This document shows, one piece after another, positions 46 through 10,915 of a stretch of DNA of 36,841 bases. Position numbers and translations under genes: made by a program. The notes under the pieces are model-generated. The model was not told the origin of the DNA. It saw only the letters and a program-made list of their open reading frames with translations, and searched no databases. Position 1 is the first letter of the stretch; every line of letters begins with the position of its first letter. The stretch is taken from contig JACPLA010000052.1 of assembly GCA_016186715.1 (NCBI GenBank), forward strand, positions 1 to 36,841, read 5' to 3'. Origin of the DNA: Ignavibacteriales bacterium (GTDB lineage Bacteria; Bacteroidota; Ignavibacteria; UBA10030).

Positions 46-176
46 AATGGTCGTCCCTACGGGACTTGATTGATTTTTGTGATTCCATTGTCTACTACCA
101 GACGGCCATCCCTACGGGATTGATTTGATCCCCTGCTTGCTCTGTTCATTCCACCAATCGGCCATCCCTACGGGAT
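46..176. repeat. Left REP array flanking the RAYT gene
   Basis: Three short imperfect palindromes sit here: GTCCC-TAC-GGGAC at 53-65, and ATCCC-TAC-GGGAT at 108-120 and 164-176. Bases 46-156 recur almost exactly at 818-928, with one difference (C at 92, T at 864), so this block is a direct repeat of the array on the other side of the transposase gene. Short palindromes next to a Y1 transposase of the RAYT type are the known signature of REP sequences mobilised or maintained by that transposase. The mobility is inferred; the repeat structure is seen directly. Confidence 0.8.
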
Positions 177-285
177 TGGTTGTTCCGCCGTCGCGTGCTT
201 ATTCGGCATTCAATCCTGCAGGACGCACTTTTGCTGCTTATGACCACCACACAGCCAACCTGTGTCGAACCTCCTGGTATCCAGC

Positions 286-329
286 CGTAGGGACGTGCTT
301 ATGGTGGAGTTCCGTAGGAACGACCTAAT
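286..329. repeat. Two further REP-like palindromes of the left array
   Basis: CCGTAGGGACG at 286-296 is the reverse orientation of the GTCCCTACGG core seen at 53. TTCC-GTA-GGAA at 310-320 is a related palindrome with a different stem. The stretch TTCCGTAGGAACGRCCTAAT at 310-329 recurs at 1064-1083, so left and right arrays end in the same module. Between 177 and 285 I see no gene and no other clear structure; the 67-codon reading frame across this region has no family resemblance and runs through the repeats. Confidence 0.65.
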
Positions 330-340
330 CACGGCAAGGC

Positions 341-802
341 TTATTCAAAGAAATCAAACAAATATTTTTCATCATACGGAATTTCAAATTCCCTCAAGAA
401 ATCCAAATATTCCTCTCTGAACGTTTTCACCCGGTGATGTTCTTCCTGGTTCATGATATACCGTATCACCGCATCTCGTTGGGACCGGGAGTGTGAAAAA
501 GCACCATATCCTTCCTGCCAATTGAATTTGCCTTTCACCAATCTGTTGTCGTTAATCCATTTGGACGACGATGCTTTCAGCATGCGCATTTGGTCAGAAA
601 CAGATCTCGTCACCGGCAATTCAAAAAACGTGTGAACGTGATCCTGCCAGCCCCCAACTGCCAAAGGATAAGCATCATCGTTTCTCAAGATGCCGGCCAT
701 GTAACGATGAAGATCATCGCGAAAATCCTTCGTGATGATCTTTTCCCTCTCCTTCACAGCAAAGACACAATGGATGTTGATCTGTGAATATGTGTTTGCC
801 AT
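341..802 (-). CDS. REP-associated tyrosine transposase (Y1_Tnp, IS200-like)
   Basis: A 153-residue single-domain HUH endonuclease of the IS200/IS605 TnpA superfamily. It would nick and rejoin single-stranded DNA at REP hairpins through a covalent 5'-phosphotyrosine bond. The metal-binding HUH motif is seen as H55-V-H57 within 'GGWQDHVHTFF', and the catalytic Tyr is most likely Y115 in 'AVIRYIMNQEEHH', a typical RAYT C-terminal motif. The start has a strong ribosome binding site (AAGGGGGG five bases upstream). Length is normal for the family and both catalytic motifs are intact, so the gene is probably functional. No TnpB or IscB partner is present. Flanking REP arrays at 46-329 and 818-1083 support the RAYT call over an ordinary IS200 element. 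The exact subfamily is not resolvable here. Confidence 0.9.
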   Translation of the reverse strand: MANTYSQINIHCVFAVKEREKIITKDFRDDLHRYMAGILRNDDAYPLAVGGWQDHVHTFFELPVTRSVSDQMRMLKASSSKWINDNRLVKGKFNWQEGYGAFSHSRSQRDAVIRYIMNQEEHHRVKTFREEYLDFLREFEIPYDEKYLFDFFE

Positions 803-817
803 AATACCCCCCTTGTG

Positions 818-1054
818 AATGGTCGTCCCTACGGGACTTGATTGATTTTTGTGATTCCATTGTTTACTACCAGACGGCCATCCCTACGGGATTGATTTGA
901 TCCCCTGCTTGCTCTGTTCATTCCACCAGACGGCCATCCCTACGGGAATGATTTGATCCCCTGCTTGCTCTGTTCATTCCACCAGACGGCCATCCATACG
1001 GGATTGATTTGATCCCCTGCTTGCTCTGTTCATTCCACCAATCGGCCATCCCAG
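818..1054. repeat. Right REP array flanking the RAYT gene
   Basis: Bases 818-928 duplicate 46-156. Palindromic cores occur at 825-837 (GTCCCTACGGGAC), 880-892 (ATCCCTACGGGAT), 936-948 (last base changed) and 992-1004 (one base changed, ATCCATACGGGAT). A further core is broken off after ATCCC at about 1048-1052. No coding sequence is present between 803 and 1078; the whole spacer is repeat DNA. Confidence 0.85.
873..1040. repeat. 56-bp tandem repeat, three copies
   Basis: Units begin at 873, 929 and 985 with a period of exactly 56 bp, and a fourth, truncated unit begins at 1041. Each unit is GACGG + C + the ATCCCTACGGGAT hairpin core + a constant 35-bp tail ending in CATTCCACCA. Only point differences separate the copies. 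A single copy of the same unit lies at 101-156 in the left array. The near-identity points to recent slippage or unequal exchange. Confidence 0.85.
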
Positions 1055-1063
1055 CAACTCTAG

Positions 1064-1083
1064 TTCCGTAGGAACGGCCTAAT
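1064..1083. repeat. REP palindrome overlapping the cyclase stop codon
   Basis: TTCC-GTA-GGAA at 1064-1074 continues into CGGCCTAAT, matching 310-329 at 19 of 20 positions. The minus-strand stop codon of the adjacent cyclase gene (TAG, 1081-1079) lies inside this module, so the repeat forms the 3' end of that mRNA. Confidence 0.65.
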
Positions 1084-3046
1084 ACGAGCCTTCACCCACC
1101 ACCACCTCCCAGACCTGAATCGGCGTGTCCAATCCCTTCGGCTTCACCGGATCCATCGGACGCGTGACAACGTGATCTTTCACCAGCTCGTACGTCCGTT
1201 GAGAGATCATGATTCCCTCCACGGGTGCACTGGATTCGAGCCGCTGCGCCAGGTTGACGTCTGAGCCAAGGACCGTGTACGACAAACGACGTGCCGATCC
1301 CATATTTCCCACCACCACGGGCCCCGTGTTGATTCCAATCCGAATCCTGATCGGGAATCTTCCCTTCCGCTCCCACTCCTCCCTGAGCAACCTCGTTTTC
1401 TTCTGCATTTCGATCGCCGCCCTCACACACCGCACCGCGTGATCCGGCTGCGGTTCGGGGTCTCCGAAGAACACCATCAGTCCGTCCCCGATGAACTTGT
1501 CCACCGTTCCTTCATACTTGAAGACAATGTCGACCATGGCTTCAAAGTATTCGTTGAGGAGTTTCTGAATTTCGTCGGCGGGAAGGACCGAAGAATAGGT
1601 CGTAAAACTTTTGATATCGCTGAACATGATCGTCAGTTCCTTCTTCTGTCCGGCGGCCGTGATCAGGTTCGGATTGGCCATGATTCTTCGAACCACCGCC
1701 GGAGGGAAATACGCTTCGAAGGAACGCCGGAGAACCTCTTTGTTTTTTTCCTCATTGAAATAACGGTAGGCGACAATGGAAAACATTCCGAGCAGGACGA
1801 TGAGAACCGGACGAAGAATGTTGATGATAACTGAAGCAAAAAACAGGCCCGCCGCGATGAGAAGAAAGGCGCCGAGGATTGCAAGCGTGCTGAGCGAAAG
1901 GGATCGTGAGGAAAGACGCAGAGCAAGAAGCAACAAGAGGACGAGAATGCCGAATTCGATCGCCAACATCCACGCTCCGCCGATATGCCTCATGAATTCA
2001 GCATTGACGATTGTAAAAATAACATTCGCGTGCAGTCCGCTCAGCGGAAAATTATTGTCTGTGGGAACCGGTCCCACATCGGCGGAACCGGTGGCCACCT
2101 CGGAGACGACCACGATTTTTCCGCCCAGTTCCTCCCCGAAAATTTCCATCTCATCCCTGTCATCCGAAGCACGAAGGATGTCCCCGAAGTCATAATGAAG
2201 CATGGTCTCCCACGGCCCCGCCCAATTAATGACGATATTTGCATGGCCGTCAATGGGGATGTCGATATCCCGTGGTTCGAACCCGGGTCTTCGGGCTCCG
2301 CGCAGGAGGATCCGCCTGCCGGGTTCGAGAAGAATGCGGTCCGGTGTCACTCCGAGATAATCGCACGAGACGCGAAGCGCAAAGCTCGGGTAGAACCGGT
2401 CCTTGTACCGTACGAGAAGAGGTGCCCGCCGAAAGACGCCGTCGGGATCGAATTTCAGACTCAAGTATCCGAGGCCGCGAGAGACCATGGCGATCTCAGG
2501 CATCGTCGCAATAGGGTTTCCGGCATCGTAGAGGCTCGAGGGATCGCCATCGACGTGGACCACCCACGAGGTCTGATCGAGATATCGGACATAATCGAGA
2601 TCGGAGTCCATCGGAGGGACCGGCGCGTCCTCATAAAGGTTGAATTTCATGCCGAAATATGCATTTCCGGCAGCGTGCGCGGCCTCAACAAAGGCCCGGT
2701 CCTCTTCCAGAGTCGTGTGGCCGGGAAAAATGTAGTCCCACGCCTGTGCTGCCGCCCCCATTGAACCGAGATTGCGGATCACCTGGGCGTAGTGGGTGCG
2801 GGTCAGATAGAAGTTCCTGAGGGTGGCGATTGTATTGTCGCTCAGGTCCACATGAACGACGGTCGAATCGTAGCGCGGCCCAAAAGAGGTCATCAACGAG
2901 CGGGCAACAAACAAACGGTCAATAATCTGGGAATTCCAGGATTCGAAGACGGCGGGAAAAGCCCAAAACAGAAAATGGACAAACAGAAACGAGGCCACAG
3001 CAAGCTGCGCCGTGGCCCAGAAGGTTCTGTTCTTACTGATGGTCAA
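1079..3046 (-). CDS. CHASE2-domain class III adenylate cyclase
   Basis: A 655-residue membrane-bound cyclase expected to make cAMP from ATP in the cytoplasm in response to an extracytoplasmic cue. Order of parts: N-terminal membrane segment about 12-34; a CHASE2-type periplasmic sensor about 40-345; three more membrane segments about 356-426; a linker; and a class III catalytic domain about 468-625. Metal-binding aspartates are D477 ('MFSDIKSF') and D521 ('KFIGDG'). K517 and T591 occupy the base-specifying positions (a Lys/Thr pair, common in bacterial adenylate cyclases). N598 and R602 match the transition-state residues in 'DVNLAQRLES'. All key residues are present, so it should be active. 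The start overlaps the end of the upstream DUF4384 gene by 14 bases, suggesting translational coupling. CHASE2 and the cyclase domain are confident; the signal it senses is unknown. Confidence 0.92.
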   Translation of the reverse strand: MTISKNRTFWATAQLAVASFLFVHFLFWAFPAVFESWNSQIIDRLFVARSLMTSFGPRYDSTVVHVDLSDNTIATLRNFYLTRTHYAQVIRNLGSMGAAAQAWDYIFPGHTTLEEDRAFVEAAHAAGNAYFGMKFNLYEDAPVPPMDSDLDYVRYLDQTSWVVHVDGDPSSLYDAGNPIATMPEIAMVSRGLGYLSLKFDPDGVFRRAPLLVRYKDRFYPSFALRVSCDYLGVTPDRILLEPGRRILLRGARRPGFEPRDIDIPIDGHANIVINWAGPWETMLHYDFGDILRASDDRDEMEIFGEELGGKIVVVSEVATGSADVGPVPTDNNFPLSGLHANVIFTIVNAEFMRHIGGAWMLAIEFGILVLLLLLALRLSSRSLSLSTLAILGAFLLIAAGLFFASVIINILRPVLIVLLGMFSIVAYRYFNEEKNKEVLRRSFEAYFPPAVVRRIMANPNLITAAGQKKELTIMFSDIKSFTTYSSVLPADEIQKLLNEYFEAMVDIVFKYEGTVDKFIGDGLMVFFGDPEPQPDHAVRCVRAAIEMQKKTRLLREEWERKGRFPIRIRIGINTGPVVVGNMGSARRLSYTVLGSDVNLAQRLESSAPVEGIMISQRTYELVKDHVVTRPMDPVKPKGLDTPIQVWEVVVGEGSY

Positions 3047-3728
3047 TGGTGAATGTTTTGCTGAAGAAATTGCTTGCGGAAATTTCGGTGGTCACAGCGG
3101 CGATATCCGGCCTTCGGGCTTCTTCGGCTTTCTCGACTCCACGGATATTGCCCCCGATGGTCACCGGACGTTCCGCAAGCGTTGTAAAAGTCCGGAATTT
3201 TCTTTTGACGGTTCGGATTTCAGCAAGAACCTTGTCAGCCAATTCGGCTTTCCCGGACTCCTCGGCCGACTGGTAATTTCCAATCATCGCCTCCAGTTCC
3301 AACAGCCGTTGGTGCGACGCCAGGAGGTAGAAGGTTTCCCGCCCCAGCTGCGCGTCAAGTTCAAACCAGCCCCGGCCCTTCGGGATGTAGTAGTTTTTTC
3401 CCACCTTGTAGTCGCCGGCAAACTGCCGAACGTCCTCAGGAAACAAAAGGGTGACCTCCCCTTTCGGACTGTGGTGGATCACATAGACAAAACAATCCTT
3501 CCGCAGCTCCACGACCATCTTGATCTCATCACCCGTCCTCAAGGTTGTGTCCCGGGTGATCGACACAAAGGTTTTCTCCTTTCCCAGAAGCGCCCCAAAT
3601 CCCCAGCGGAAGACAACATTCTCGTCATCCTGTCTGAACTCTGCGGCTGATTCCGGAATTCCGGCGGGCTGATACACTCCTGCTCCGGAGAAGAACACGG
3701 CGAGCGTCGGTATGAAAAGCAGTCTCAT
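3033..3728 (-). CDS. Secreted DUF4384-domain protein
   Basis: A 231-residue exported protein. The start at 3728 is chosen over an in-frame ATG at 3818 because AAGGAG lies just upstream and the product then begins with a signal peptide ('MRLLFIPTLAVFFSGAG'). There is no lipobox cysteine, so it is probably soluble periplasmic or surface-exposed. Residues about 55-140 resemble DUF4384, a small beta-rich domain. The pattern of a raised-charge strand, 'GDEIKMVVEL', then 'GEVTLLFPED' and a 'YYIP..GWFEL' strand is typical of that family. A charged, probably helical stretch follows (about 140-185). DUF4384 commonly occurs in or beside caspase-fold proteins, and here the caspase gene ends 16 bases upstream while the cyclase start overlaps this gene's end. 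A role as sensor or adaptor is inference. Confidence 0.8.
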   Translation of the reverse strand: MRLLFIPTLAVFFSGAGVYQPAGIPESAAEFRQDDENVVFRWGFGALLGKEKTFVSITRDTTLRTGDEIKMVVELRKDCFVYVIHHSPKGEVTLLFPEDVRQFAGDYKVGKNYYIPKGRGWFELDAQLGRETFYLLASHQRLLELEAMIGNYQSAEESGKAELADKVLAEIRTVKRKFRTFTTLAERPVTIGGNIRGVEKAEEARRPDIAAVTTEISASNFFSKTFTIDHQ

Positions 3729-3744
3729 GGCTGGCTCCTTCGAA

Positions 3745-6141
3745 TCATTTGTTAAGAACGGACATCGGCAGTTCTTTGTCATACGTCGTCTGACTGCGGG
3801 TAGGATTTTGAGCCCCACGGGTCTTTCGCTTCACTTGTTCCTCGACATATCCCATCAGCTCATTAATGGTGACAAGGTGGTCGTTATTGAGGTCCGCCGC
3901 CCCTTTGAGACCTTCGAGCAGATAATAGGTAAAGGCCCCATGGCCCAGTTCCGGAAATTCCTGCGAAACTTCCCCGGCAGCGCTCGCCGTAAAGACAACC
4001 AGTCCTTCCTTTGCCCGGGAGAGTTCGGCGAGATAATGATTAATGGGATTGGATTCCGTCACGTCGAGCCCCCGCGTGGCAACGTCGACGCTGATGCCGC
4101 CGCTATGACACGCGTCGGAGAGCACGACGACCTTCTTTGCCTGAATCTGCCGCGCAATCACGGTCTGAATATCCCACATCGGGAAAGCGGTTGTTCCAAG
4201 GCGGGTCGGATCGGTATCGTGAGTCAAGAGATACAAATTCTGAGGGCGGGTTGGATCCGGAGCTCCATGACCCGCAAAGTAAATCAGGACGAGATCCTTG
4301 TCAATGGCCTGCTGGAGAAAATCAATCATCGCCTCCCGAAGATTGGGAAGTGTAGCATCTTTGTTGGTGAGAACACGCATATGATCGCGGTCGAAGCTTC
4401 CTCCTTCCGGGGTCTGGAGAAACGCGGCGACGGCATCGGCATCCTTATCTGCGAATTTCAGACTCGGAATAGACGGATTGCCGTACTCGGATATTCCCAC
4501 GATCACAGCCCAGCGCTGAGGTCCCAAGGTCTCCCGGGAAGCCTGCGATCTCGGCTGGCGAATGGCCTCCGTGATCGCCGCGGAGAATTTTCTCGTCACT
4601 CCCACGAGTTTTGTAAAGCGTTCGCCTTTTTTTCCGTTGACTGTAATTCCGATCTGATTGTATCCGACGATGAGCGGAACTTCTTCTTTAATGGCGTCGC
4701 CCGGTCTGATCCGGAGCGGACCTCTCCGGTCCGTGATCTCGATCGTATTTGCCGACAGACTGTACGACGACACTTCAAACCAGGGCTTGAACTGCACTTC
4801 AATGGCAACGTTCTCTGTCTCGGCATTCTCAGCAGGTTCAAGGACTTCAATGGCTTCGCCGGCCATTAACCGGCGGAGATACAACGGCTGCGTCGCCATG
4901 TTTCCACTCTCATCACGAGCTTTCACCTCGATCAGATTCATCCCTGTCGCCGCCAAATTCACTGTGACCCGAAATTCCTTCCCCTTCAGGCCCGCCTGCC
5001 GGGCGGAGGTGTTCTCGACTTTTGGTTGGCTGAGGACCGCTTTCCGATTTCCTACAAGGACTTCGCTGATTTCACTTTCATCATACACGATCCCAAAAAC
5101 ATCGTATTCGGTTGCATAGATTTTCGTCGGCGAATCCTCGGAATAGCGTGTTGGCTGAAGAATGGTAATGGCAGGGGCCGTCGTATCGGGGGCCTTCGGA
5201 AGCACGGTCCAAGTCGACACGCGGCCGCGCGAGTCTCCCGTCACCATCGCTTCATCGGAAACAAAGGAAGCAAAGGTAAAGGCTGCATCGGGCAACGTCA
5301 TGTGCTTGACCACGGCAAGAGAGGAGACATCATAAATTTCCAGGGAGCTATCCGAAGAGACTGCGGCGACCCAAAGACTTTTTGGGTGAAAACTCATCTC
5401 TCGAATTCCTCCGCGTTGGGAATTTTTCGACCCTTTCAACTGCCAGTTATTCGTATCGAAGAGGCGAACAGTCCCGTCATTCCCGCCCGTTGCGAGCATC
5501 TTTCCGTCCTGACTGAACGTGACGACCGCGGGGGATTCGCGCAGTTCCGTTACCGCGCTGACCCGTGCGAGCGCCGAATCGTGAACCGACAGCTTGTTCC
5601 CAAACAAACCCACAACAGCGATTTTTCCATTGGGATGTACTGCCATGGAGAGGATTCTCTCATCCCCAAGAGAAACAGACGACAGAGTCTTCCCTTCCGA
5701 CGGATTGAAGAGATGTATCGTGTTATTACCCCCCGCGACCAACAGATGTCCGGAAGCATGGACCCCAAGTTCCACAACTCCTCTTGGATGGGCGGTCACG
5801 GACCGGGTCATCAATCCTCGAACGACGTCCCAGTAGTTCAGTTGACCGTCTGCCCGTGCGGTAACCAGTTGGCCATCGGCGACAAATCGGATCGAGGTCA
5901 ATGTGCCGGGGAGTTGGGCGTTGGCAAAGAGAACCTTCCAGTCCTTCAGGCTGACCACTTTCAGCCCGTTCTCTGCCGAGGTCACCGCAAGAAGTCCGGT
6001 GGATGGCTGAAAAATTCCCCGCGTGACAGAAACGGAGAAGATCTCCTGGGAGGCTGTATTTTGGACGTAGATCTCCTCCTGAGCCAAAGCGGGCCAGCCG
6101 CACAGCCCAATCAAGCAGATTCTAACGAATGTTGATTTCAT
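3745..6141 (-). CDS. Secreted WD40 / Ig-like / caspase-fold (C14) protease
   Basis: A 798-residue exported protein. The start at 6141 is preferred to one at 6249 because GGAGGTCTT lies directly upstream and the product then starts with a signal peptide cleaved near 'LALAQEE'. Residues about 35-315 form a WD40-like propeller ('FSQDGKMLATGGNDGTVRLFD' type units). Two Ig-like strand-rich domains follow at about 320-425 and 428-515. A caspase-fold peptidase occupies about 541-770, with the catalytic dyad H625 ('YFAGHGAPD') and C678 ('LSDACHSGG'). A 12-residue EF-hand-like loop lies at 750-761 (D750, N752, D754, E761). Such proteases usually cut after Arg or Lys, and some need calcium. It is the first gene of a three-gene operon with DUF4384 and CHASE2-cyclase genes. 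The target and trigger are unknown. Confidence 0.9.
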   Translation of the reverse strand: MKSTFVRICLIGLCGWPALAQEEIYVQNTASQEIFSVSVTRGIFQPSTGLLAVTSAENGLKVVSLKDWKVLFANAQLPGTLTSIRFVADGQLVTARADGQLNYWDVVRGLMTRSVTAHPRGVVELGVHASGHLLVAGGNNTIHLFNPSEGKTLSSVSLGDERILSMAVHPNGKIAVVGLFGNKLSVHDSALARVSAVTELRESPAVVTFSQDGKMLATGGNDGTVRLFDTNNWQLKGSKNSQRGGIREMSFHPKSLWVAAVSSDSSLEIYDVSSLAVVKHMTLPDAAFTFASFVSDEAMVTGDSRGRVSTWTVLPKAPDTTAPAITILQPTRYSEDSPTKIYATEYDVFGIVYDESEISEVLVGNRKAVLSQPKVENTSARQAGLKGKEFRVTVNLAATGMNLIEVKARDESGNMATQPLYLRRLMAGEAIEVLEPAENAETENVAIEVQFKPWFEVSSYSLSANTIEITDRRGPLRIRPGDAIKEEVPLIVGYNQIGITVNGKKGERFTKLVGVTRKFSAAITEAIRQPRSQASRETLGPQRWAVIVGISEYGNPSIPSLKFADKDADAVAAFLQTPEGGSFDRDHMRVLTNKDATLPNLREAMIDFLQQAIDKDLVLIYFAGHGAPDPTRPQNLYLLTHDTDPTRLGTTAFPMWDIQTVIARQIQAKKVVVLSDACHSGGISVDVATRGLDVTESNPINHYLAELSRAKEGLVVFTASAAGEVSQEFPELGHGAFTYYLLEGLKGAADLNNDHLVTINELMGYVEEQVKRKTRGAQNPTRSQTTYDKELPMSVLNK

Positions 6142-6380
6142 AAGACCTCCGGGACCGTTCTCAACGTAACGTACGAAGTCCCTGAGAGTCAAGGTGTGTT
6201 GTGTATCAAGACCAGCTGACGAGTTCCTGGATGCAAGGAGAACGACCATGAACCGCCCCCCATCAAGGTTTCATTTTTTCGAATGAATGTCAAGACATCG
6301 TTTTCTTGCTTCTCCAAGCGTCTTTTTCTATATTTTTTCAGCACTCCGTTTCACCAATTCTCCTTCACTTGGAGCCTTTG
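6142..6380. promoter_or_regulatory. Divergent intergenic region between caspase operon and TPR gene
   Basis: This 239-bp spacer separates two secreted-protein transcription units pointing away from each other, so both promoters should lie here. On the minus strand, a candidate TTGACT at 6190-6185 sits 18 bases from TACGTT close to the caspase start; it is weak. Another TTGACA occurs on the minus strand near 6286, without a convincing -10 element. The plus-strand promoter is listed separately. A few palindromic hexamers occur, but no clear operator. Confidence 0.4.
6306..6334 (+). promoter_or_regulatory. Sigma70-like promoter of the TPR gene
   Basis: TTGCTT (6306-6311) and TATATT (6329-6334) are separated by 17 bases. 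Transcription would start near 6341 and give a leader of about 40 bases before the ATG at 6381. The same architecture appears upstream of hldE1 and of the gene at 29125. Confidence 0.5.
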
Positions 6381-8285
6381 ATGACGCAAGTTCGCTTTCT
6401 CTTCCTTTCGGCTGTTTTCATTTCCCACTTTCTTTCGGCTCAGATTCCCTCGGTGACAATCAAGATTCGGGAGAAATCGGGATTCCTTGGGATGGGAGGC
6501 CCGCGGTTCATTGAACTTCGCCTCGGCAACCAGACCATAGAGTATCCCCTGAATGATGTGAATGTTAACAGCGGCCCTTCGTATTTCTTCCTCTGCAAGC
6601 CTGCGGGAAATTGGTTGTTCGATGAGGACTTCATCGATGATGACCTTCCAAACCTGACGCTGGTCCAGGGAGACCTGAGTTTCCCGGTTGAATGGAATGG
6701 CCCTTTCGCCGAGGGCGACTCCTCCCTTCAGATCGGTTTTTCAAAGCAACTGAGGATCCACGAGCCGATCACGGTCCGATTCGCCTCCGGCGATACGCAA
6801 GATGAGGCGGAGATGAAGATTCCTCAGGAACTGTGGCCGGGATTCGTCGCTTTCACGCGGCTTTCGGGGCGAGTTGACGGTGAAGTGACCGGCGGACGTC
6901 ATCGGGAGGTAATTCCGCTTTGCGAACAAATCCTGAGGGAAAAATCCTTCTCCATCTATCCGACGTATGACCGTTTTCGCGAAATCCGTATCAGGAGTTT
7001 TCGGACCATCTACACACAGACGTGGATAGACATTTCAGGTGTCGTTGATGATCAACAGGCCGATTTGAAGACCAAGATTGCCAGGCTGGATGAAACGCGC
7101 CCTCTGATTCAATTCGTGGTTGACTCACTCCCGGCTCCCGTACTCGGAATTACCGACGAGGATTCCTCAGTCAGTGAGATCTTATCCAGGGCACTCACCA
7201 CGCTTGAGTGGTTCGGCACCACGCGTGCTTCGTTGCAGCAGGCGCTCGACGATCAGAACGTGCGCTGGATCCTCGAAGGGTCCGTCTCAGGACGGTCCGG
7301 CTTCCGCTATCAGACGATGCTGGAGGCCTTGGCGTACGCCTTTTCATCGCTTGACTTCGCCGACACCTCCGCGGCGCACCTGGAGTGTACCATTCCCGAA
7401 GAGATGCGCGGGAATCTGGAAAAGAATGGCCTGACCGACTCTTACGAAACCTTCCTTCGGCAGACAAACGAGCGCTACCAAAAGGGCCTGCCTCTCTTTT
7501 CAGGTACGTTCCTTGAGAATGTCCGGCGCGATACCGCGTCGTTCCGTCTCCCGTTCTCTTCCATGCTCGCGGCCGTCAATGCATACTATGACAGGTCCTT
7601 CGAGGGCGCCCAGACAGAAATTTTCAACATCTTCCGCATGTCGTATGACCCTGAAGTGTCTGCGCGTTTCGATCAGATGAGGATCATGATTAAAGTACGT
7701 CAGGGTGAATTTTCACGGGAGGCGCTCAACCTTTTGGAAGAAGCTGCCGAACTGGAACGATCTGATCCTGAAGCTGCAGGAGAGAAGTACCGTCAAGCGA
7801 CCCTCGTGGCTCCCAACTTTGCGTATGCATCGTTTGCATTGGGACAATACTACGGCCGGAGCGGCGATCCCATCCGCGCTCAGACATTCTTCGAACGCTC
7901 GTATGATTCGGATACACTGTATCTCAGCGCATACCGGGAGTCGTTTAATTTATATCGACGCGTAGGAAACTACAAACCCATGATCGAAGTGCTCACCCGA
8001 GCTCTCCGCAAGGGGAACGACTATTGGGAAACGCAATCGAATCTTGGCCTTGCCTACATGGGCGACGGCGATCCCGCCCGCGCAATCCAGCATTACGAGC
8101 ACGCTCTTGCCATCAATCCCCGGAGCTATACCACGAACATCCAGCTCGGGCTTGCCTACCAAACGGTCAAGAACTATCAAAAGGCGCGGGAGTTCTTCAA
8201 CAACGCCATCAACATTGACCCCCTCCGGCAAGAGGCCGTTGAATATCTCGGCCGGTTGAACGAACTGCAGCGCGGGGGGAAATAG
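6381..8285 (+). CDS. Secreted TPR-repeat protein
   Basis: A 634-residue exported protein. The ATG at 6381 is chosen because GGAG lies seven bases upstream and a signal peptide follows ('MTQVRFLFLSAVFISHFLSA'); an earlier in-frame ATG at 6306 overlaps the promoter. The N-terminal two thirds match no family I can name. A segment near residue 300 ('VRWILEGSVSG') faintly recalls the 'YVLEGSVR' strand of TolB-like N-terminal domains found with some cyclases, but this is weak. The last 200 residues or so carry at least four TPR units, for example 'YASFALGQYYGRSGDPIRAQ', 'QSNLGLAYMGDGDPARAIQH' and 'NIQLGLAYQTVKNYQKAREF', a protein-protein interaction scaffold. It is divergent from the caspase operon, which makes it a possible partner. 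It appears monocistronic. Confidence 0.8.
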   Translation: MTQVRFLFLSAVFISHFLSAQIPSVTIKIREKSGFLGMGGPRFIELRLGNQTIEYPLNDVNVNSGPSYFFLCKPAGNWLFDEDFIDDDLPNLTLVQGDLSFPVEWNGPFAEGDSSLQIGFSKQLRIHEPITVRFASGDTQDEAEMKIPQELWPGFVAFTRLSGRVDGEVTGGRHREVIPLCEQILREKSFSIYPTYDRFREIRIRSFRTIYTQTWIDISGVVDDQQADLKTKIARLDETRPLIQFVVDSLPAPVLGITDEDSSVSEILSRALTTLEWFGTTRASLQQALDDQNVRWILEGSVSGRSGFRYQTMLEALAYAFSSLDFADTSAAHLECTIPEEMRGNLEKNGLTDSYETFLRQTNERYQKGLPLFSGTFLENVRRDTASFRLPFSSMLAAVNAYYDRSFEGAQTEIFNIFRMSYDPEVSARFDQMRIMIKVRQGEFSREALNLLEEAAELERSDPEAAGEKYRQATLVAPNFAYASFALGQYYGRSGDPIRAQTFFERSYDSDTLYLSAYRESFNLYRRVGNYKPMIEVLTRALRKGNDYWETQSNLGLAYMGDGDPARAIQHYEHALAINPRSYTTNIQLGLAYQTVKNYQKAREFFNNAINIDPLRQEAVEYLGRLNELQRGGK

Positions 8286-8288
8286 TTG

Positions 8289-8409
8289 AATGGTTAAATA
8301 GTTAAATGGTGACTCTTCGTTGCGCAGGAGCTCCGCTCCTGAGTTGAAGGCATCCCAAAACCATGCTTACTCGACATCTCACCATTTGACTTATGACCAT
8401 TTAACCATT
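8289..8409. repeat. Palindromic intergenic element enclosing a REP-like hairpin
   Basis: Two perfect arm pairs face each other: AATGGTTAAAT at 8289-8299 with ATTTAACCATT at 8399-8409, and AAATGGTGA at 8304-8312 with TCACCATTT at 8379-8387. Between them lies a 7-3-7 hairpin, CAGGAGC-TCC-GCTCCTG, at 8325-8341. The element starts four bases past the TPR gene stop, so its RNA could act as a transcript end, but there is no U-run. A miniature mobile or REP-type element is an equally good reading. Confidence 0.6.
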
Positions 8410-8691
8410 TTACGAGTGCGGCTCCTTTGCATTTCTTCCGATGTCTTTCTATATTGAGACGTTTGAGGAATCCTCAACTGTCCCCTGCGGACAATAAGTT
8501 TGAGGATTTTTCGTTTCATCAGATACCCGATCTGGGGCACGCGGCGAAATTGCCTGCCGTCTCATGAGAATGCAATGACGCAGGCGGGCCTGCCCGCCGT
8601 CTCCAAGAAAAAAAATGGGCACCTGGCAAAACTGGCAGACCTGCCCGCCGTTCGATGACATGTTTAAAGTCGGGAAATTGTTTTTTAATTT
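8410..8691. other. Gene-free spacer with GC-rich palindromic words
   Basis: No coding sequence is supported here. A strong palindrome, GGCGGGC-CT-GCCCGCC, lies at 8583-8598. Its core word recurs as TGCCCGCCG at 8642-8650 and, inverted and extended, at 8869-8884 just past the tRNA-Leu gene. At 8617-8640 a short stretch (ACTGGCAGACC) resembles the D-arm of the tRNA-Leu downstream, possibly a decayed copy. Promoter elements for the tRNA could not be placed with confidence. Confidence 0.45.
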
Positions 8692-8739
8692 GGGTAGATG
8701 GCGGAACTGGTAGACGCGCTAGCCTTAGGTAACCCGTGA
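8692..8739 (+). pseudogene. Degenerate tRNA-Leu (5' half)
   Basis: From 8697, TGGCGGAACTGGTAGACGCG followed by CTAGC-CTTAGGT reads as the D-arm, 5' anticodon stem and anticodon loop of a tRNA-Leu with anticodon UAG. The 3' anticodon strand (expected GCTAG) is absent; instead TAACCCGTG follows, which looks like the 3' part of a class II variable arm. A deletion between two GG dinucleotides would explain this. No T-arm and no matching 3' acceptor strand follow, so no functional tRNA can fold. An intact tRNA-Leu lies 38 bases downstream. Confidence 0.6.
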
Positions 8740-8776
8740 TCGCCGCGAGGAAACAACAGCGCGGTTTCTGCGCGAT

Positions 8777-8860
8777 GCCGCGGTGCTGGAACTGGCAGAC
8801 AGACTGGACTTAGGATCCAGTGTCCGAAAGGACGTGAGAGTTCGACTCTCTCCCGCGGCA
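8777..8860 (+). tRNA. tRNA-Leu (anticodon UAG)
   Basis: Eighty-four bases fold as a class II tRNA. The acceptor GCCGCGG (8777-8783) pairs with CCGCGGC (8853-8859), with discriminator A at 8860. The D-loop contains AACTGGCAGA. The anticodon stem CTGGA/TCCAG encloses the loop CTTAGGA, giving UAG, which reads CUA and other CUN codons. A long variable arm (TGTCC-GAAA-GGACG) and a T-arm GAGAG-TTCGACT-CTCTC follow. CCA is not encoded. It lies just upstream of tig and may share its transcript. Confidence 0.95.
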
Positions 8861-8994
8861 CGTTTTGTCGGCGGCAGGCGGGCATGGGGTTCTCAGCCAT
8901 TGAGTTTGATCAAGGAAGGCTGATCCGCCTCGGGAGTAGCATCGGATGGCGGAGAGTCCCTCCGTGCCCACATGATGGCAAAAGGAATGAACAA

Positions 8995-10269
8995 GTGGAA
9001 GTAATGATCGAAAACCTCTCCGATGTTTCCCGGGCAGTCGAAATCTCCGTCCAGGCCTCGGAGATCCAGCATCATTTTGACAAGGCATACCAGGAATACC
9101 GCCCAAAGGCCGAGATCAAGGGGTTTCGGAAAGGGAGGGCCCCTCTTGAACTCATCAAGAAACTGTATGGGGATCTGATTGAGCACGAGGCATTGAACAC
9201 TGTCGCCACCGAGCTTTATCGCGATGTGGTCCGGGAGAAGGAGCTGAAACCTATCGGTGATCCTGTGATTGTGGACATGAATTATAAGCGCGGCGAGCAG
9301 TTTCGGTTTAAGGTCCGGTACGACGTGCGTCCTGAAATCACGTTGAAGGATTACAAAGGAATCAAGGCGGAAAAACCGATCCATCGCGTGGCGGACGATG
9401 AGATCGAGGAAGAAATTCTCCGCCTTCGCAGGATGAACAGCACGACCGAACAAGCGGAGGGCGTGGCCGACGACGAGTATATTGTCACCGCAGAGCTCAG
9501 GGAGCTGGATCCTTCGGGATTGCCCCTTGTGGGGAAGAAGAATCAGAACAGCAGGTTCTATCTCGCCGATCCCCAACTCGAGCAGCCGATTCACGACGCA
9601 TTGCGGAATGCAACGCCGGGTGGAGAGTACCGCGTTTCGTTTCGGCACCAACACGGAGATCATGCCCACGACGTGAACATGATGATCACGGTAAGCAAAG
9701 TTGAGAAAGTCCTCTTGCCGGAGTTCAGCGACGAATTTGTCAAAAAGGTTACAAAAGAAAAGATCGCCACAGTGGACGAGTTCCTGAGGGGGTTGAGAAA
9801 GGATCTCGAGTCATACTGGACCGAGAAGAGTCACCGGCAGGTCGTGAATGCGATTGCCGCCGAGATCATCCGTCGTCATGATTTCCAGGTCCCTGAGTCC
9901 TTGATTCGGAGCGTCCTCCAGGGGTTGGTCGAAGAAGTCCGGATGCAATACCGGGACAAGCAGCTTCCGTCCGATTTCGATACAGAACGGTTTTTCCGGG
10001 AAAATCGGGATTATGCGATCTATCAAGCCAAGTGGGCGCTTCTTCGCGAGGAGATCATCAATGCGGAGAACATCTCGGTCAGCGAGCAGGACCTTGCGGC
10101 CCTTGCGGAAAAGGAATCGGAAAAAATCGGGATCGACAAAGACCGCCTTGTCGGTTACTACAAATCGTCGGAGCAGGTTAAGGACCGGCTTGCCGGCGAT
10201 AAACTCGTCGATTTTCTTCTGAAACATGCAACCATCAAGGAAGTTGAGCAGCACAATTCGGCGGAATAA
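8995..10269 (+). CDS. tig: Trigger factor
   Basis: A ribosome-associated chaperone and peptidyl-prolyl isomerase that binds nascent chains at the exit tunnel. The product has 424 residues with the GTG start at 8995, close to the family norm of about 430. The ribosome-binding loop is seen at about 43-50 ('GFRKGRAP'), followed by an FKBP-like domain (about 150-240) and the helical chaperone domain. GTG is preferred because AAGGA lies eight bases upstream and the N-terminus then reads '[11 protein letters not shown]', as in homologues. An ATG at 9004 is the alternative. An ATG at 8884 in the same frame would add sequence unlike the family. A five-codon frame (8987-9004) ends in TAATG overlapping the ATG at 9004. 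clpP follows after 19 bases. Confidence 0.95.
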
Positions 10270-10288
10270 ACAGGAAGGAAGTCAATTC

Positions 10289-10915
10289 ATGAATCCGACG
10301 GAGCTGTACAATCAGCTTGTACCTATTGTGGTTGAGCAGACAGGCCGCGGCGAACGGGCATATGACATTTTTTCCCGTCTTCTCAAGGAGAGGATCGTCT
10401 TCATTGGGATGCCCATTGATGACACCATTGCGAGCCTTGTGATCGCTCAGCTGCTGTTTCTCGAATCGGAGGATCCCGACAAAGACATTAATCTATATGT
10501 CAATAGTCCTGGCGGAAGCGTCACCGCCGGTCTTGCGATTTATGATACCATACAGTATATTCGGCCGGATGTCTCCACCATTTGCATCGGCATAGCAGCG
10601 AGCATGGCGGCGGTGCTTCTGGCGGGAGGAGCAAAGGGAAAGCGGACGGCGCTTCCCAATGCACGCATCATGATCCATCAGCCGTGGGGAGGCGTCCAGG
10701 GAACTGCTTCCGACATCAGCATTCAGGCGGAAGAAATTCTCAAGACCAAAAAGCGCATCAACGAAATTCTGGCGAGTCATACCGGAAGGGGTGTTGAACA
10801 GATCCAGAAGGATACGGATCGAGACTATTATCTCTCTTCCGAAGAGGCAAAAGGGTACGGCCTCATTGACACGGTTTTGATTAAGCGTTCGACAGACGGG
10901 AAAAAAGAAAAATAA
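10289..10915 (+). CDS. clpP: ATP-dependent Clp protease proteolytic subunit
   Basis: The barrel-forming serine peptidase of the cytoplasmic ClpXP protease. It has 208 residues, normal for the family. The catalytic triad is seen as S105 ('GIAASMAAV'), H130 ('IMIHQPWGG') and D179 ('TDRDYYLS'). The start at 10289 has GGAAGGAAG upstream; an earlier in-frame start would overlap tig and lacks family similarity. The order tig-clpP-clpX is the classic operon arrangement, with only 15 bases before clpX. Trigger factor feeds or protects nascent chains while ClpXP removes damaged or tagged proteins. All features are typical. Confidence 0.97.

Follow-up and report, generated by a model that had tools for sequence, protein, structure and literature searches.

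What might an exported caspase, a small exported protein and a membrane receptor with a nucleotidyl cyclase domain be doing side by side? The question is raised by a 36,841-nucleotide stretch of an Ignavibacteriales bacterium (contig JACPLA010000052.1, positions 1 to 36,841), here called the window. Three complete genes, all on the minus strand, encode a WD40-Ig-caspase (P0001), then a DUF4384 protein (P0002), then a CHASE2-cyclase (P0003). An earlier note on this DNA gave a 16-bp gap between the first two and a 14-bp overlap between the last two, and both are exact. The genes are tightly packed and probably co-transcribed. Our answer is that they form an envelope signaling operon in which the DUF4384 protein regulates the CHASE2 receptor and the caspase is an upstream input, a reading to which we give a probability of roughly one half. 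At its core is the DUF4384–CHASE2 pair rather than a pairing of caspase with cyclase, and the caspase, though conserved, is less strictly required. What CHASE2, a widespread sensor domain, responds to is for the most part unknown; no function is known for DUF4384, and for most bacterial caspases no partner is known. A conserved and probably coupled DUF4384–CHASE2 pair with an upstream caspase gives each of these families a concrete partner that can be tested.

Inheritance and Genomic Context of the Trio

Orthologues were sought in 100 related genomes, the window's own included. These are mostly metagenome-assembled genomes (MAGs), and the locus counts are not phylogenetically independent. The cut-offs, picked after seeing the gap in E values, were E < 1e-100 for P0001 and P0003 and E < 1e-50 for P0002. 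P0002 orthologues occur in 32 genomes, all of them in two families of the order, f1 and f5; a further match, the 33rd, in G007, was weak and was left out of the count. A P0003 orthologue adjoins the P0002 orthologue in 32 of 32 genomes (only part of the gene in G062, where the contig ends), and a P0001 orthologue is found in 31 of them, with the order caspase–DUF4384–cyclase and the strand constant. The other 68 genomes have none of the three genes. The trio is nearly all-or-none and is co-ordered in the 31 caspase-bearing loci, which is not chance. Recurrence in conserved order is what the earlier note named as support, and the adjacency extends beyond this genome and its close relatives, with analogous sets in other families of the class (L109 and, independently, L143; see below). 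One genome, G004, has an additional lone caspase copy. Among database entries, the named relatives are MAGs that carry the label Ignavibacteriales, Ignavibacteria, Bacteroidetes or Bacteroidia.

The surroundings look like those of a resident locus. At many f1 loci, a divergent tetratricopeptide repeat (TPR) gene with tig-clpP-clpX adjoins the trio, and the squalene genes hpnC-hpnD-hpnE come after the trio. In the window, the TPR gene (6306-8285, encoding 659 amino acids) stands next to the caspase gene; it is present in 19 of the 32 trio loci. The window neighbors include LptD, a D-Ala ligase (Ddl) and TamB. Flanking genes differ from locus to locus, as they do between f1 and f5, but the trio itself stays constant. 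The gene trees agree for the most part, with 15 of 21 splits in common. Given this housekeeping synteny, and with searches of viral contigs and plasmids turning up no relatives of P0002, the trio resembles a resident envelope system more than a mobile conflict module. The link to conflict systems drawn in the earlier note fits poorly with a locus so often in conserved housekeeping synteny. As a separate observation, the genes immediately after the trio at L038 (9327-12547), and at further loci in many f1 genomes, encode two squalene/phytoene synthases and an amine-oxidase-type protein, resembling hpnC-hpnD-hpnE.

The DUF4384 Protein and Its Probable Coupling to the Receptor

P0002 contains the DUF4384 domain (PF14326) at residues 63-140 (E = 1.3e-15; 57.7 bits against a Pfam gathering score of 27). 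Signal peptides had been noted on the first two proteins, and a crude test for a hydrophobic core and an A-x-A site, passed by 30 of 32 P0002 and 25 of 29 P0001 orthologues, goes in the same direction; both proteins are predicted to be exported. The AlphaFold2 (AF2) model of P0002 has a mean predicted local distance difference test score (pLDDT) of 84 and is a mixture of strand and helix with no barrel pattern. Compared with the PDB, it gave no significant match (best E 0.009, template modeling score under 0.3). In a DUF4384 alignment reaching 20% identity, only D125, P188, G193, N194 and R196 are invariant. G193, N194 and R196 are likewise invariant in the 32 orthologues, and they are followed by a variable linker and then a conserved C-terminal strand; residues 192-201 are predicted to be disordered in the model. 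This P-x4-G-N-[VI]-R signature, which we refer to as the GN-R loop, marks the first site for mutation.

The overlap between the DUF4384 gene and the cyclase gene is conserved in detail. In 28 of the 32 loci, the DUF4384 gene has a TTG exactly 14 bp from its end. At L053 (genome G016; L053/L080), a GTG is found at the same 14-bp distance, despite a DUF4384 gene that is longer by a few codons through a C-terminal extension. This makes 29 of 32 loci with a start codon exactly 14 bp back; L036, L037 and L040 have TCG, and to judge from that triplet, their cyclases must start elsewhere. At the site of the TTG, 26 of 29 Ile codons are ATT, versus 36% ATT at the other Ile codons of these genes (P 4e-9, relatedness ignored); with Val or Leu at this position, the codons are GTT and CTT, and the TTG is still present. 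That 29 of 32 loci retain a start codon here, including those in which the encoded residue has changed, suggests that the overlap is under selection. Because this conserved start codon comes with a codon bias, the DUF4384 protein and the receptor are probably translationally coupled.

Distant DUF4384–CHASE2 Loci

A profile search of 391 genomes of the class found the GN-R family of DUF4384 proteins in families f14 and f24 as well; in 396 genomes of the phylum, there was no full-length match beyond the class. The recurrence in distant FCB genomes that the earlier note looked for therefore holds only in part: it extends to other families of the class, but the GN-R DUF4384 protein is confined to one class in the sampled genomes. 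A CHASE2 protein is encoded by the next gene in 7 of 13 distant GN-R loci (L108, L109, L150, L209, L210, L212 and L213); for other DUF4384 proteins, the figure is 2 of 26 loci (Fisher P 0.003 on a hand-counted table). By a rough base-rate estimate, CHASE2 as the immediate neighbor in 4 of 13 genomes would occur by chance with P about 3e-9. L109 is a full trio again, with the caspase dyad intact. In L150, the GN-R protein is paired with a CHASE2-SpoIIE receptor. Since L150 swaps the output to SpoIIE and the pair stays, the DUF4384 link goes to the CHASE2 sensor, not to the output. At both L150:7066-9054 and L220:7304-9349, a CHASE2 receptor with a SpoIIE-type phosphatase output is encoded immediately after a DUF4384 gene, with caspases in the vicinity, and these are output-domain exchanges within the DUF4384-linked CHASE2 clade.

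That clade is evident in a tree of CHASE2 domains. The domains of the GN-R loci, whether attached to cyclase or SpoIIE, are split off together with L220 by a branch whose support is 100/99. Outside it are 21 unlinked CHASE2 domains, L143 and the caspase-cyclase pairs L068/L069/L072. The long-branch control L186 was omitted from this tree; in another CHASE2 tree, it falls outside the clade. In a tree of the cyclase domain, which is short and poorly resolved, the DUF4384-linked set needs two changes. At the 21 unlinked CHASE2 loci examined, there was no DUF4384 gene, caspase or GN-R motif nearby. Because of the 100/99 clade and because DUF4384 is missing from the unlinked CHASE2 loci, one CHASE2 lineage and one DUF4384 subfamily have, by the evidence of these sequences, traveled together.

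The f14/f24 variant differs in its third member, the caspase being absent or possibly degenerate. At L108, L209, L212 and L213, a TPR-Ig protein follows the receptor, and in L213, a VWA-TPR-OmpA protein is encoded further on. The Ig domain of the TPR-Ig protein is matched by the Ig-like domain of P0001 (hhalign 96.3%, E 2e-9). The TPR-Ig C-terminus aligned to the caspase with a score of 32.3 versus at most 21.0 in 20 column shuffles, at a probability of only 22.5%, which is suggestive, and only that, of a degenerate caspase. Away from this subfamily, DUF4384 and caspases are generally associated, because caspase genes lie near 13 of 20 non-orthologous DUF4384 loci of the phylum, in genomes holding 0 to 9 caspases, and because a single protein in G003 of family f1 (L074:6692-8350) fuses a DUF4384 domain to a caspase.

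Some further arrangements were seen in the course of this survey. L216, L217 and L218, from three genomes of one genus, have A-G-N-[TA]-[RK] variants of the loop with no CHASE2 nearby, duplicated in L216. L143 (genome G113, 2141-10572) encodes a TPR-caspase, an LPP20-DUF4384 protein without the GN-R loop, a CHASE2-cyclase and then an M48-SH3 protease; it was rejected as a direct relative, its CHASE2 being in another clade and its DUF4384 protein lacking the loop. L068, L069 and L072/L073 (genomes G029, G031 and G021) represent a separate association of a short Ig-caspase, a CHASE2-cyclase whose CHASE2 lies in another clade, and an M48-SH3 protease. L068 and L069 carry a further caspase (in L069 a PEGA-caspase by Pfam), the L069 association sits downstream of a giant FG-GAP/laminin/fn3 surface protein, and some 17 kb separate the caspase from the cyclase in L072/L073.

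The Two Enzymes

P0001 consists of a predicted signal peptide, a WD40 propeller, an Ig-like region and a caspase domain, in that order. Peptidase_C14 is matched at residues 543-790 (E = 2.7e-21; PF00656, 76.8 bits against a Pfam cut-off of 21.4). The protein scores 121.5 bits with the NCBIfam model NF047832 (caspase, EACC1-associated type), below its curated cut-off of 140. The AF2 model bears out the propeller and Ig region, mostly above pLDDT 85, and is weak for much of the caspase domain. The His/Cys dyad is intact, as first noted: His625 and Cys678, with the neighboring Asp676, are identical in 29 of 29 orthologues. Residues 520-540, a disordered, Arg-containing linker from the Ig region to the caspase, are a possible self-processing site.

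P0003 has CHASE2 at residues 24-373 (E = 4.1e-33) and a class III cyclase domain at residues 466-638 (E = 1.1e-29) by Pfam. Its hydropathy follows the CHASE2 layout, with one hydrophobic segment before the sensor and about three after it. The cyclase residues Asp477, Lys517, Asp521, Asn598 and Arg602, representing the two metal-binding Asp and the Lys, Asn and Arg, are identical in 26 of 26 orthologues. Because the catalytic residues are conserved, both the caspase and the cyclase should be active. We infer that ATP is the substrate of P0003 and cyclic AMP (cAMP) the product. The genome encodes five cyclic nucleotide (cNMP)-binding proteins, none from genes inside the window.

Proposed Mechanism and Alternatives

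We propose that the exported DUF4384 protein would act in the periplasm as a regulator dedicated to the CHASE2 ectodomain, produced in a coupled fashion with the receptor. It would dock to or gate the ectodomain by its C-terminal strand and G-N-[VI]-R loop and in this way set the activity of the cytoplasmic cyclase, whose output, most likely cAMP, would act on CRP-type proteins. Input would come through the WD40-Ig-caspase, whose propeller and Ig domains would recognize a target that is secreted or lies in the envelope; the caspase would then alter the state of the DUF4384 protein, possibly by a cut after Arg196. The physical contact, the direction of control, the cAMP product and any cleavage are what we infer. 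The earlier note's route from an envelope signal through CHASE2 to cAMP stands as far as the topology and the five cNMP-binding proteins fit it; it had placed the protease and the DUF4384 protein together in front of the receptor, but the tight pair is DUF4384–CHASE2, with the caspase the variable member.

Several findings weigh against our reading. G016 keeps DUF4384 and cyclase with the caspase missing at the locus; that genome is 69% complete, but the contig is unbroken from the clpX-clpP-tig side into the DUF4384-cyclase pair and has no caspase remnant. GN-R DUF4384 proteins occur with no CHASE2 neighbor at L211 and L214-L218. The GN-R motif is retained in G190, where the Peptidase_C14 search detects none. 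The idea of a purely caspase-linked loop is weakened by this, and because of it, the loop is less likely to be mainly a caspase site. Lastly, the adenine-selecting Asp596 is D in 20 orthologues, P in 4, E in 1 and A in 1, so that with 6 of 26 replaced, the nucleotide product is not certain.

Two alternatives retain some life. One, in line with the earlier note's link from proteolysis to a second messenger, is that the exported caspase cuts a dedicated partner outside the inner membrane and the product switches the CHASE2 cyclase, converting proteolysis into a cyclic-nucleotide signal, which we regard as doubtful. In its direct form, with the caspase cutting DUF4384 at Arg196 (or the CHASE2 ectodomain) to switch the cyclase on and pass proteolysis straight to cAMP, it seems to us similarly improbable. 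The invariance of His/Cys and Asp676 in the 29 caspases and the nearly all-or-none trio are in its favor, as is an invariant Arg196 in a model-disordered loop with a variable linker after it, given that non-metazoan C14 proteases cleave after Arg/Lys (PMC5756287). However, the loop persists in G190, the DUF4384–CHASE2 pair survives the absence of the caspase at G016, and Gly-Asn-Val-Arg is equally plausible as a docking motif. Cleavage at Arg196 as a special case is rated low, as the loop is found in the absence of a detected caspase too.

The other, which we also think unlikely, is that the caspase and the DUF4384–CHASE2 pair are co-regulated in an envelope stress response with no direct contact; the caspase would clear damaged or misfolded exported proteins, and the receptor would sense stress independently. 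Tight packing with probable co-transcription, the tig-clpP-clpX neighbors with hpnCDE in many f1 genomes, and the caspase-free pair at G016 are all compatible with this. A direct link is suggested instead by the near all-or-none inheritance, by the caspases near 13 of 20 non-orthologous DUF4384 loci and by the G003 fusion.

Two further explanations have very little going for them. Ordinary positional conservation, the genes staying together just because a genome segment is inherited vertically, could draw on the syntenic TPR gene and tig-clpP-clpX of many f1 loci and on the mostly congruent gene trees, but it is most improbable when the flanks vary and the trio does not, genomes without the trio miss all three genes together, the overlapping start codon is conserved, and the DUF4384–CHASE2 adjacency recurs in other families with different flanks. 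A phage-defense or programmed-death module, with the caspase as toxic effector and the cyclase as a Pycsar-like alarm, has PADLOC matches (caspase 1.2e-16; PycC 2e-29 over the cyclase domain only) but was rejected on the f1 housekeeping synteny and the LptD, TamB and Ddl neighbors, the lack of a Pycsar (cNMP-binding) effector in the window, the predicted export of the caspase and the lack of P0002 relatives in viral and plasmid collections.

Relationship to Known Systems

Literature searches found no description of a caspase–DUF4384–CHASE2-cyclase trio. A close parallel is in Sinorhizobium meliloti, where the adenylate/guanylate cyclases CyaD1, CyaD2 and CyaK are likewise CHASE2 receptors with a cytoplasmic class III cyclase. 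They need an accessory envelope protein for the outside signal, the outer-membrane protein NsrA feeding them, and their cAMP goes to the CRP-family regulator Clr (PMC13001267). Here, that place would be taken by a small DUF4384 protein, predicted to be exported and probably translationally coupled to the receptor, and there is a predicted exported caspase besides; NsrA is an outer-membrane beta-barrel, whereas the 231-residue P0002 model has no barrel pattern. P0001 has the caspase fold, the His/Cys dyad and WD40 repeats in common with orthocaspases, and DUF4384 is a recorded accessory domain of the cyanobacterial ones (PMC3501461, PMC7475262). It differs in being predicted to be exported, in having Ig-like domains between propeller and protease, and in its operon with separate DUF4384 and CHASE2-cyclase genes. 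A Trichodesmium metacaspase-CHASE2 fusion (PMC3501461, PMC2853523) also has a caspase fold and CHASE2 in one signaling unit, but in that protein CHASE2 is predicted to have the caspase as its cytoplasmic output, whereas here the caspase is predicted to be outside and the output is a cyclase. Pycsar PycC has the class III cyclase domain in common with P0003; here, however, a CHASE2 sensor is attached, there is no effector gene nearby, and the locus is not a defense locus.

Layout of the Locus

Open reading frame starts were placed mechanically. The features are collected in Table 1.

Table 1. Features of the caspase–DUF4384–CHASE2 locus, in window coordinates.
Feature	Position	Strand	Basis
P0001, predicted exported WD40-Ig-caspase (Peptidase_C14), 798 amino acids	3745..6141	-	Pfam; orthologue in 31/32 trio loci
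P0001 WD40 beta-propeller, about residues 43-313	5203..6015	-	Pfam; confident strands in AF2 model
P0001 Ig-like domain, about residues 319-430	4852..5187	-	hhalign; Glucodextran_B matches in relatives
P0001 catalytic His625 codon	4267..4269	-	29/29 orthologues
P0001 catalytic Cys678 codon (DACHSGG)	4108..4110	-	29/29 orthologues
P0002, predicted exported DUF4384 protein, 231 amino acids	3033..3728	-	Pfam; AF2 mean pLDDT 84
P0002 P-x4-G-N-[VI]-R loop, residues 188-197	3138..3167	-	Invariant P188/G193/N194/R196; partly disordered in model
14-bp overlap of DUF4384 stop with cyclase TTG start	3033..3046	-	Exact overlap start in 29/32 loci
P0003, CHASE2-class III nucleotidyl cyclase receptor, 655 amino acids, TTG start	1079..3046	-	Pfam, conserved residues, CHASE2 tree
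P0003 CHASE2 extracytoplasmic sensor domain	1928..2977	-	PF05226; in DUF4384-linked clade
P0003 class III cyclase catalytic domain	1133..1651	-	PF00211; catalytic residues

At the contig edge (window 130-1052) is an IS200-type Y1 transposase (341-802). Beside it lies a 56-bp tandem repeat of 3.3 copies (869-1052), the core of which is copied again at 130-156.
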